64,000 nt of DNA, from positions 62,001-126,000 of the forward strand of contig NZ_AULM01000005.1 of NCBI RefSeq assembly GCF_000422285.1. Reading direction: 5' to 3'. A program made the position numbers and the translations under genes. This document shows positions 54,101 through 56,592 of this stretch, piece by piece (the stretch's first letter is position 1; each line of letters begins with the position of its first letter). The notes under the pieces are model-generated. The model was not told where the DNA came from, made no database searches, and worked only from the letters and a program-made list of their open reading frames with translations. The stretch is from Desulfatiglans anilini DSM 4660 (lineage in GTDB: Bacteria; Desulfobacterota; DSM-4660; Desulfatiglandales; Desulfatiglandaceae).

Positions 54101-55687
54101 CTAGAGAGGCCCCGGGCAGAATGGATCACGCTCCCGAAAGATGTCGATCCCAGAGCTGTAAGCGATCGCCAGGCACCCCCCGCACACAGGACGTATCGCG
54201 CAGGACGCGCAGGCCTCGGAGCCTGCGCGGTAAAGACCGGCCGCCTCACCCTCATAGATTTCGAGGATGCTTGACGTCAGGACATTTCCTATCGGGGAGG
54301 GAAATTTGCGGCAGGCGTGGGCCTCTCCATCCGGAAGCACCGTCATGAAGTTGAATGCCGCTCCACAACCATAGCCGGCACACCCACCGAAAACCCCGTT
54401 TCCTCTTTCGTACAGCAGACGGTTCAAAAGGTTGTCCTTCACGCCGATGACAGGGTTTCTCGTCGCCGCCTCGAGATAGGCCTCGCAAAACCTTCGGTAG
54501 GCCTCCTGCGAAGGCAGCCGCAAGTGCACTCCTTCCCCCACGAGTGAAAGCCGGTTGAAGGTGAACAGGTCGGTCCGCCCCTGCAGGAGATCAGCCAACG
54601 GCAGCACTTGATCGATGTTCGCGTCGGTAAGGGTGAGCATCACCATCGAGTAGATGCGGAACTCCCGCAGGAGTTCCAGGAAGGAGAGGGTGCGGTCGAA
54701 ATGGCCCGCCTGCCGGACCGCGTCATTGTGCTCCCTCAACCCCTCGAGGCTCACCTGGTAGTAAACGGGCGTTTCGATTTCGACAATCGCTTCGATGTCT
54801 TCGCGCGAAGCCGGGTTTCCGAGGACGGCCAGGGCGAAGCCCAGATCGGACGCCCTCCGGTAGAGTTCGAGGAAGCGAGGGTGGAGGAGGGGGTTCCCGC
54901 CCGTAAAAGAGATCTGACCGCGGACGTGCTTTGCTTCGCAGAAGCCGTAGAACCCCTCCAGGACGCCGAGCGCCGTTTCATAAGGGAGGGAGGTTCTTGC
55001 CGAGCGGTCGTAACAGTGCCTGCAATGGAGGTCGCAGGCCTGGGTGATGTGCCACTGAAGCGTGAACACGTCGGCCGTCAGGAAACGCTCTTCAAACCCC
55101 TCGGGGATCGAAAACAGCGTTTCGCTCCGCCTGATCGCGGAAGGCGGGGCGATCAGCAGACCGGTCCGAACCGCTCGGTCGACCGCCTGATCCAGGGCCG
55201 CCGGCGGGATGCCGGCCTCTTCCGCCGCCTGTTTCCGGGGGATTTCATCGGCGAGCAATTTCAAGGCGAGAAGATCGTCATTCCCGGCTGCGCGGAAAAT
55301 GACGTCGCCGCTTTCGGGGTGGCGATACGCAAGCACGAACTCGCGCCCCTTTTGCGGTTCGGGGGCCCCATCAGGATCGTTCATGAGGGATGGGAGATGC
55401 TTCCAGCCGAGATCGAGAAGACTCAGCGTGGGATTGACGGCGATCCGCTCGAATGAGCGGCGCGCCGGCAGCTGAATCGAAGCCGCCTCCCCGATCGCTC
55501 CTTCGAGCCGCGCAAGGTCCCCGATAAAGGGCCTTTCTTCGAACATATCCTGCAGGGTTTGGTAGAAGCTTTCCGAGCCGGGCGGGCTCGGGCAGGATCC
55601 CTCGAATTGACGCCAGCGGGACTCGCCGACCAATCGCCGGCAATGAGGAAACTGTGTCCGAAAGGGTCGTTCCGCTTCGCTGTCCAT
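54101..55687 (-). CDS. sbtM: Radical SAM/SPASM peptide maturase, selenobiotic (SbtM) type
   Basis: A 528-residue protein from ATG 55687, preceded by GGTGAGAG; ATG 55717 would add 10 residues without an RBS. An N-terminal domain (to about 150) is followed by a winged-helix-like part (IPRKQAAEEAGIPPAALDQA). The radical SAM core begins at CDLHCRHC (Cys 218, 222, 225), which ligates the 4Fe-4S cluster that cleaves SAM; GGNPLLHP follows. The C-terminal SPASM region has many cysteines (CAGYGCG, HACRKFP, CASCAIRPVCGGC, DPFC) for auxiliary clusters. The TGA-containing peptide gene directly upstream is its probable substrate. As I recall, this is the architecture of thio(seleno)oxazole/selenobiotic maturases. 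Confidence 0.85.
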   Translation of the reverse strand: MDSEAERPFRTQFPHCRRLVGESRWRQFEGSCPSPPGSESFYQTLQDMFEERPFIGDLARLEGAIGEAASIQLPARRSFERIAVNPTLSLLDLGWKHLPSLMNDPDGAPEPQKGREFVLAYRHPESGDVIFRAAGNDDLLALKLLADEIPRKQAAEEAGIPPAALDQAVDRAVRTGLLIAPPSAIRRSETLFSIPEGFEERFLTADVFTLQWHITQACDLHCRHCYDRSARTSLPYETALGVLEGFYGFCEAKHVRGQISFTGGNPLLHPRFLELYRRASDLGFALAVLGNPASREDIEAIVEIETPVYYQVSLEGLREHNDAVRQAGHFDRTLSFLELLREFRIYSMVMLTLTDANIDQVLPLADLLQGRTDLFTFNRLSLVGEGVHLRLPSQEAYRRFCEAYLEAATRNPVIGVKDNLLNRLLYERGNGVFGGCAGYGCGAAFNFMTVLPDGEAHACRKFPSPIGNVLTSSILEIYEGEAAGLYRAGSEACASCAIRPVCGGCLAIAYSSGIDIFRERDPFCPGPL

Positions 55688-55717
55688 TCTGCTCTCACCG
55701 CGTTCATCCGATATCAT

Positions 55718-56038
55718 CGAAAAGCGGTCGCCAGGCCGCCAGGCCGCTTCGCGGCCCGGCTTCGTCAGCCTGCCGCCGGCTGGGGCGTTGCAATGACGGC
55801 GGAATTTCCCGGCAGCCTCCCTGACGGAAAGGGGTCGAAAACTCGATGGCCATCGAGTCAGGCCTTGGCGCAGGCCGCCGTTTCAACCGTATAGGTTGAA
55901 CAAAGAACACCGCATGCCTGTCTCGCGCAGGAACACTCTGGAAACATTCCTGGTGTTTCACCGAATCTCCACATTGCGCGTTTCATGTGCGTGGGACGGG
56001 GGGAGGATCACAAAAAACCTTACAAAAAAAAGCTTCGC
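55718..56038. other. Spacer between sbtA-like and sbtM-like genes with two dyads
   Basis: ACTCGATGGCCATCGAGT (55841-55858) is a perfect 18-bp palindrome. TTCAACC-N5-GGTTGAA (55882-55900) is a second dyad. A 42-codon Cys-rich minus-strand frame (55858-55986) has no RBS and is not called. The palindromes could be protein-binding or RNA structures controlling the maturase. Confidence 0.5.
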
Positions 56039-56053
56039 AGTGCGGACCGCACT
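56039..56053 (-). promoter_or_regulatory. SECIS-like hairpin 3, possibly doubling as terminator
   Basis: AGTGC-GGTCC-GCACT begins 16 bases after the third TGA and contains the TAG stop within it. It is followed by GCGAAGC and eight T residues on the minus strand, so the same hairpin may end the transcript. Confidence 0.7.
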
Positions 56054-56357
56054 ACTTCTTGCTGCCGCCTCAGCCGCTTTGGCCGGGCTGTTTTTGTGGC
56101 TGCGTCGTTTCTCCGGCAGGTTGGGTTGCATTTTGATCGGCTTCACCGGGTTGGGCTTGCGGGGCGCTTCCAGCGCCGCTTTGCTGCCCGCCTCACCCCG
56201 AGGAACCGGCCGCTTTTCCAGGTGGTTGGGTGCTGCCTGCACCGCCTTTGGCGCCCCCTCAGCCACTCGAGGATCCGGCAAAGACCAGCCCCGCGCCGGA
56301 TATGAGGGTCGCCACGCAGACGCCGGAAAGCACCTTCTTGATTTCTTTCAATTCCAT
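56052..56357 (-). CDS. sbtA: Selenocysteine-containing RiPP precursor peptide (SbtA type), three in-frame TGA codons
   Basis: A 101-residue peptide if TGA is read as selenocysteine (U). It starts at ATG 56357 with RBS GAGAGGT five bases upstream and stops at TAG 56052. The leader is MELKEIKKVLSGVCVATLIS then GAGLVFAG, a charged then hydrophobic stretch like a signal or recognition leader. The core has three G-U-GG sites, at residues 33, 55 and 96: SSSGUGGAKGG, GSSGUGGQQSG and GQSGUGGSKK. These are separated by Gly/Ser/Pro/Gln-rich linkers. All three TGA codons lie in one frame in the same tetrapeptide context, and each is followed by a matching hairpin. A radical SAM maturase follows on the same strand. 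The mature product is probably exported and antimicrobial or redox-active, but that is inference. Confidence 0.9.
56163..56177 (-). promoter_or_regulatory. SECIS-like hairpin 2
   Basis: GGCGC-TGGAA-GCGCC begins 15 bases after the second in-frame TGA (56195-56193). The loop holds GG, as bacterial SelB-binding SECIS loops do, and the distance fits. Confidence 0.75.
56229..56243 (-). promoter_or_regulatory. SECIS-like hairpin 1
   Basis: GGTGC-AGGCA-GCACC begins 15 bases after the first in-frame TGA (56261-56259), with GG in the loop. It has the same stem and loop sizes as the two hairpins after the other TGA codons. Confidence 0.75.
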
Positions 56358-56592
56358 GGGTTACCTCTCGAAAGAACAGGGTGTTCAGTTGTTGGCCATG
56401 ATTCGTTCAATCCGATACCTCCCCCCGTTGCCTCCATGATACACCGATAACGCTGCGCATGCAATCCATGCCTGTTGCTTCTTGACATTCGCCGGAATGC
56501 CCGCTAAGAGTCCGTTTCGTGAACGCTTCGCTTCCCCTCGGGGCGCAGCCGGGTCCTGAGCCGGCCCAAATAGAAGCTGGAGGTGATGCTCG

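Follow-up and report, generated by a model that had tools for sequence, protein, structure and literature searches.

A predicted three-selenocysteine SbtA precursor gene and its adjoining sbtM in Desulfatiglans anilini, and SECIS-like hairpins in the SbtA family

The 64,000-nucleotide stretch of the Desulfatiglans anilini DSM 4660 genome analysed here (contig NZ_AULM01000005.1, positions 62,001 to 126,000; hereafter the window) contains an SbtA/SbtM locus, i.e. a precursor peptide gene (sbtA; 56052..56357, minus strand) with three in-frame TGA codons, followed by the gene for a thio(seleno)oxazole radical SAM/SPASM maturase (sbtM). This locus is a new member of a family that has already been described and modelled (TIGR04081 and TIGR04082). 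Taken jointly, the data make it probable that selenocysteine (Sec, U) is inserted at the three UGA codons, that SbtM converts these residues to selenooxazoles, and that the peptide is exported; outside the cell it may bind soft metals. Beyond what an earlier note on this DNA had described, a hairpin was found behind each TGA codon, together with a signal-peptide-like leader and an N-terminal module of SbtM that resembles the partner proteins of multinuclear non-haem iron-dependent oxidases (MNIOs). The study cited for SbtA/SbtM thio(seleno)oxazole RiPPs (ribosomally synthesized and post-translationally modified peptides) is reportedly that of Lewis et al. 2021 (Biochemistry 60:3347). Statements on published work below refer to the surveyed parts of each source.

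The sbtA frame comprises 102 codons from ATG to TAG (101 residues), and its sole in-frame TGA codons are codons 33 (56259..56261), 55 (56193..56195), and 96 (56070..56072), all on the minus strand and all in the context Gly-TGA-Gly-Gly, exactly as the earlier note had read them. The three resulting SGUGG sites follow the leader in a low-complexity Gly/Ser/Gln core, and an AGAGGT stretch (56363..56368, minus strand), found by eye 5' of the ATG, agrees with the good ribosome-binding site that had been claimed. With the TIGR04081 model, the leader reaches 42.4 bits (cut-off, 30.5), and 43.7 bits in a search of the genome, where it is the only match, while the product of sbtM (54101..55717, minus strand), located 334 nt downstream on the same strand, scores 713.3 bits against TIGR04082 (cut-off, 350); the SbtA/thio(seleno)oxazole identity that the note had proposed, and the radical SAM/SPASM gene that it placed beside the frame, were thus both borne out. 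The two features of SbtA membership, a leader above the curated cut-off and an SGU(G/S) core motif, are both present. Because the leader exceeds the TIGR04081 cut-off and no match was found among 14 control genomes, the frame is not a product of chance. The gene had also been described as hidden, which holds for gene callers that stop at TGA but not otherwise, since the family is modelled.

TGA terminates 21 of 35 long, non-overlapping open reading frames (ORFs) of the window (at least 250 amino acids; not each confirmed as a gene) and is therefore not reassigned genome-wide. In L018, the one same-genus genome searched, all three TGA codons of sbtA are kept and 92 of the 102 codons are identical, the 10 differences consisting of six synonymous and four non-synonymous changes. 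The genome also carries the Sec machinery for which the earlier note had proposed to look, namely selA, selB, selD, and the tRNA-Sec gene (selC; anticodon TCA). In the selD gene (G000:C18:45500-46420), a single TGA lies in frame, and selD, too, probably encodes a selenoprotein.

The wider family was surveyed with an SbtM profile built from 36 proteins, which matched 318 stretches of GTDB contigs, and the best 80 of these 318 were analysed. A search with a leader profile, in which TGA was read as Sec, identified precursors in 70 of these 80 loci (contig ends truncate several of the 80) and, with the window locus and its same-genus relative included, 77 precursor genes in 72 loci. Four precursors are of the all-Cys type (L056, L082, L114, and L125). 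By the counting rule applied, the other 73 contain one (7 genes), two (24), three (40), or four (2) predicted Sec residues; three Sec is the commonest state, as 40 of the 73 Sec-type precursors have this number. The core sites of relatives, whose TGA/TGC conservation the note had suggested checking, keep TGA, with a minority of Cys. SbtM above the cut-off was found in 2 of 61 genomes comprising the window genome and its relatives and, at the level of the phylum, in 27 of 297. Among the carriers, Desulfosarcina alkanivorans (L076) is a cultivated organism, and the SbtM that has been studied reportedly comes from a Geobacter. From the phylum, a second set of loci was obtained that had not been used to shape the hairpin rule described below; a leader match was present in 24 of these 26 loci, and counts were made on 20 genes with a leader match at E <= 1e-4 and first 40 residues that had not been met before. 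A scan of viral contigs revealed no SbtM relative, and the 'SbtA' of PMC9469722, a bicarbonate transporter, is an unrelated use of the name.

The in-frame TGA codons of this family are followed by hairpins resembling the selenocysteine insertion sequence (SECIS). According to the published bacterial SECIS (bSECIS) model, there is a G in the first two loop bases, a loop of 3-9 nt, a stem of 4-16 bp, and a loop position 16-37 nt after the UGA (PMC13188914). A context rule retained 183 (181 unique) of the 230 TGA codons read in frame; the 47 dropped rows are mostly stops two codons past a Sec or read-through beyond the gene, and three dropped sites (L054 U41, L099 U33, and L107 U127) look real. 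A hairpin of at least 5 bp was present at 168 of the 181 sites, compared with a mean of 52.4 in 20 shuffles, and one with a G in the first two loop bases at 165 sites, compared with a mean of 30.3. At internal sites, the codons that build the hairpin spell a pentapeptide (GAGST, GAGSA, GAVST, SAVSA, and others). In 101 pentapeptide sites picked by amino-acid pattern alone, the wobble base of the first codon forms a Watson-Crick pair with the first base of the fifth codon in 99 cases (U-A 69, C-G 20, and A-U 10) and a G-U pair in the remaining two, and none of 20000 within-amino-acid permutations reached the observed pairing. All five pairs form in 97 of the 101 sites, compared with 9.2 (maximum, 19) when synonymous codons were redrawn. 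The RNA therefore shapes the peptide repeat no less than the repeat shapes the RNA.

C-terminal sites, where there is little or no peptide constraint, contain a hairpin across or past the stop codon in 64 of 65 cases; the sole miss, codon 92 of L115, is on inspection the stop codon of that gene. The stop codon overlaps the 5' arm in 29 of these 64 terminal hairpins, including that of the window. No such hairpin stands at 18 of the 21 core Cys positions in the all-Cys genes (one Cys past the L056 stop was excluded), and the Cys sites of mixed Sec/Cys genes vary in hairpin presence. In the second set, a hairpin was found at 38 of 38 Sec sites and all five pairs in 20 of 20 pentapeptides, or at 32 of 32 sites and in 16 of 16 pentapeptides after removal of L154 and L167, which are near-copies of L127.

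The three hairpins of the window, all on the minus strand, match the geometry of the bSECIS model. Hairpin 1 (56229..56243; GGUGC-AGGCA-GCACC) encodes GAGST, hairpin 2 (56163..56177; GGCGCU-GGA-AGCGCC) encodes GAGSA, and hairpin 3 (56037..56055; GUAGUGCG-GUC-CGCACUGC) holds the stop codon TAG (56052-56054) in its 5' arm. Counted from the UGA, their loops begin at nt 21, 22, and 23, their stems comprise 5, 6, and 8 bp, respectively, and each has a G in the first two loop bases; the 50-nt folds, which are not per-hairpin energies, have values of -15.1, -19.4, and -13.8 kcal/mol. A search against Rfam returned tRNAs and otherwise matches at chance level. Bacterial selenoproteins with an in-frame SECIS share with SbtA the loop bases, loop, stem, and distance of the bSECIS model (PMC13188914), whereas SbtA differs from them in having tandem modules in one short peptide and a terminal hairpin that spans the stop codon or lies past it. 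The imprint of the hairpins on the pentapeptides warns that conserved repeats beside Sec codons may reflect constraints on the RNA instead of belonging to the active peptide, and it offers a sensitive route to further genes broken by TGA. Between sbtA and sbtM, hairpin 3, with its stop codon, and an eight-T run on its 3' side (56024..56031, minus strand) together also have the appearance of an intrinsic terminator. A family-wide role of the terminal SECIS as a terminator was rejected, since a T-run (at least five within 14 nt) was found at only 1 of the 64 terminal sites, that of the window.

SbtM consists of a radical SAM domain (54587..55048; PF04055), a SPASM domain (54200..54367; PF13186), and an N-terminal module (55136..55687), all encoded on the minus strand, and its start is perhaps at 55687, judging from relatives. 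C228, C232, C235, and eight more cysteines (446-534) are invariant across 36 sequences, and the closest database protein, named from an uncultured Desulfatiglans sp., is 93% identical. The N-terminal module is a homologue of MNIO partner proteins, in which a DUF2063 domain is joined to a recognition-like winged helix. The resemblance could be confined to the winged helix, as a shared recognition element joined to an unrelated helical domain, but we consider this alternative quite improbable: taken by itself, the helical half (residues 1-75) gives a match to the DUF2063 profile at 97.8%, with 94.4% for the winged half, and both superpose on 3dee in a single alignment (168 residues, 3.7 A). The link of the module to 3dee and TglI comes from structure and profile-profile comparison. 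When the N-terminal profile was run against PDB sequences, the hits were all at chance level, a DUF2063 protein run in the same way had none, and the matches listed for the full-length SbtM model are radical SAM proteins. No link between SbtM and DUF2063 partners was found in the literature surveyed, which is itself incomplete.

The SbtA leader (residues 1-27; 56277..56357, minus strand) is signal-peptide-like, with a possible signal peptidase I site between LVFA and GSS suggested by its motif; the first 35 residues are identical in the window SbtA and L018, on which the leader motif analysis was made. SbtA leaders start with K-K, followed by a hydrophobic stretch. A lipobox is present in 49 of 74 leaders, with its Cys at residue 29 in 42 of them, and a loose rule places a signal-peptidase-I-like site ending in Ala in the other 25, that of L018 among them; of the 20 leaders in the second set, 8 have a lipobox. 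The window SbtA itself has no lipobox Cys. In L092, residue 29, the lipobox position that is Cys in most relatives, is encoded by TGA, after which no hairpin was found by the rule; this codon represents Sec at the lipobox, a mutation, or an assembly error. No partner gene recurs widely within 3 kb of the loci, the top neighbour cluster occurring in 16 of 80 loci; this clustering covered ORFs of at least 70 amino acids in flanks of up to 3 kb and set aside SbtM and ORFs antisense to it. A cassette of two genes in which the leader resembles a signal peptide is in keeping with the general secretory (Sec) or lipoprotein route, and the SbtA peptide probably leaves the cytoplasm. No link between SbtA and signal peptides was found in the same incomplete body of literature.

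Compared with the SbtA/SbtM RiPPs described previously, the window locus has the same leader family, the same SGU core motif, and an adjacent SbtM of the same equivalog, whereas it has three Sec residues, in contrast to the SGUG and '2', taken as the Sec number, given in a review table (PMC13188914). The hairpin-peptide imprint, the signal-peptide-like leaders, and the MNIO-partner-like module do not appear in the parts of those accounts that were surveyed. The SbtM of a relative removed four hydrogens from Cys- and selenocysteine-containing peptides, and the Cys product was identified as a thiooxazole by nuclear magnetic resonance (PMC11002830). Thiooxazoles are also found in captophorins, the class name for copper-binding thiooxazole peptides, in which a 5-thiooxazole is formed from Cys (PMC12668002). 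Among these, bufferins contain thiooxazoles and, like oxazolins, have Sec signal peptides, and they sequester copper in the periplasm (PMC12452194). Captophorins (bufferins, oxazolin, fontiphorin, gonophorin, and bulbicupramide) are made by an MNIO and a DUF2063-type partner, and this partner is homologous to the N-terminal module of SbtM; in SbtM, by contrast, a radical SAM/SPASM catalyst is fused to the partner module and there is no separate MNIO. Neither an MNIO (PF05114) with a separate DUF2063 partner nor any PF05114 match at E <= 1e-10 or PF09836 match at E <= 0.001 was found in the genome, in which the partner exists solely as a part of SbtM. Selenium replaces sulphur in most SbtA members, and metal binding would be shared by analogy. 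Where SbtA relatives carry Cys in the core, two Cys residues most often stand five positions apart (14 pairs, of which two fall in read-through stretches), the Cys-x4-Cys spacing also seen for Cys40/Cys45 of bulbicupramide (PMC12538549), and the Sec-type relatives L151, L153, and L159 contain U-x4-U. DAG-RiPPs, which are RiPP-lipoprotein hybrids and lipidated relatives of bufferins, carry a lipoprotein signal on a RiPP precursor (PMC12636315), as suggested for the 49 lipobox-containing SbtA leaders; they differ in being MNIO-made, and the window SbtA has no lipobox. The main text of PMC12636315 mentions neither SbtA, SbtM, nor selenium.

In the mechanism proposed here, Sec would be inserted at the three UGA codons, each with its predicted SECIS-like hairpin, and the partner-like N-terminal module of SbtM would capture the signal-peptide-like leader. 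The radical SAM domain would then work on each SGU site, where, by analogy with captophorins (PMC12668002), each Sec and the carbonyl of the preceding residue would be oxidised to a selenooxazole. The modified peptide would leave by the general secretory route, and this would account for the lack of any further gene family that widely accompanies the SbtA/SbtM pair. Outside, exposed selenolates may bind Cu(I) or another soft metal, as bufferins and related peptides suggest; the metal is the least certain step of the mechanism. Three features point to an exported, bufferin-like ligand, a reading open to direct test: the leader resembles a signal peptide, neither a transporter nor a peptidase gene is conserved beside the pair, and SbtM contains the MNIO-partner module.

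Several observations weigh against this mechanism. No copper or other metal gene is linked to SbtA/SbtM, and SbtM (27 genomes) and MNIO (9) occur together in none of the 297 genomes listed, although only ~0.8 would be expected and the difference is not significant. Four of the 27 SbtM matches of the phylum align only from model position 102-107, and the DUF2063-like half may be missing or diverged in these. The motif-based signal peptidase I criterion is loose on Ala-rich leaders, and 12 of the 20 second-set leaders have no lipobox by rule. With regard to the hairpins, 13 of the 181 sites lack one of 5 bp, nine of these being internal sites of four Nitrospirota loci; in the second set, the hairpin after codon 72 of L143 (1 of 38) begins farther from the TGA than the published range allows, and a single hairpin is shared by the two Sec codons of several closely spaced pairs. 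The three hairpins of the window are not unusually stable on their own (z = 0.32, -0.04, and -0.04), and of 5000 synonymous redraws, 12% formed a hairpin at site 33, 62% did so at site 55, and 7.5% had one at each of the two sites. The authors of the bulbicupramide study hesitate over a copper-protective role (PMC12538549).

Since the window hairpins alone are unremarkable, the case for SECIS function rests on the family and not on the window. Their individual energies would suit TGA codons that are real stops, leaving a 32-residue leader peptide or a decaying gene, but the frame runs on with conserved cores in 77 genes at 72 loci (four of them all-Cys), the hairpins covary, and all three TGA codons are kept in the same-genus relative, which makes genuine termination hardly credible. 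As for the product, no stated function for SbtA peptides was found in the surveyed part of the literature, and the names in use suggest antibiotics. Source annotations indeed read 'selenobiotic family peptide radical SAM maturase', and a review table contains the entry 'Selenobacteriocin' for TIGR04081 (PMC13188914), so that a secreted antimicrobial, cut from its leader and acting on competitors, has to be considered. However, with no widely recurring gene family within 3 kb, there is no conserved immunity, transporter, or peptidase gene; the leaders have the look of ordinary signal peptides, and the lipobox present in many of them would tether the product to a membrane; and the core in the window is of low complexity. 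An antimicrobial thus appears distinctly unlikely. The exported selenopeptide could also be a redox or selenium-handling device, such as a selenolate relay or a scavenger of peroxide or selenium, rather than a metal binder. Selenols are strong nucleophiles and reductants, and the precursors hold 1 to 4 predicted Sec residues. Turning every Sec into an aromatic ring would, however, spend the redox chemistry, and copper binding is reported for thiooxazole peptides of related chemistry (PMC12668002 and PMC12452194); we regard a redox device as unlikely, though with somewhat more in its favour than an antimicrobial.

Returning to an exported metal ligand, a broader proposal, to which we would give slightly less than an even chance, is that SbtA/SbtM represent an oxygen-independent, selenium-using branch of exported copper-binding thiooxazole peptides. 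The partner protein that is paired with the oxygen-using MNIO in aerobes would have been fused to a radical SAM enzyme in anaerobes, signal-peptide precursors with single- and double-site cassettes would have been kept, and Cys would have been replaced by Sec, so that copper(I) or other soft metals would meet seleno-oxazole ligands displayed on the envelope. If this is true, two unrelated chemistries, that of the oxygen-using MNIO and that of the oxygen-free radical SAM enzyme, make the same heterocycle via one shared precursor-recognition module. This family-level picture turns the question of the purpose of SbtA into direct tests.

Some members of the family depart from the common pattern. 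In L155, L162, and L164, Cys-type or mostly Cys-type SbtA-like precursors contain Met beside the Cys sites, and L155 (weak leader match, 1.9e-3) contains His there too; Met and His beside Cys are frequent in copper-handling peptides. The core repeats of L051, L058, L101, L107, and L111 have Gly, Val, or Gln at the Sec position or have lost it; a relic of the GAGST-type segment persists in some of them, and these repeats look like decayed Sec sites. The Nitrospirota precursors of L061, L062, L063, and L070 have internal TGA codons without a recognisable hairpin and terminal sites with one. In other loci, Sec codons spaced 3 to 6 apart precede a single hairpin, with pairs 3 apart in L064 (U36/U39), L071 (U37/U40), L108 (U40/U43), and L054 (U38/U41) and pairs 5 apart in L153 and L159 (U35/U40), and one SECIS may serve two UGA codons in such close pairs.
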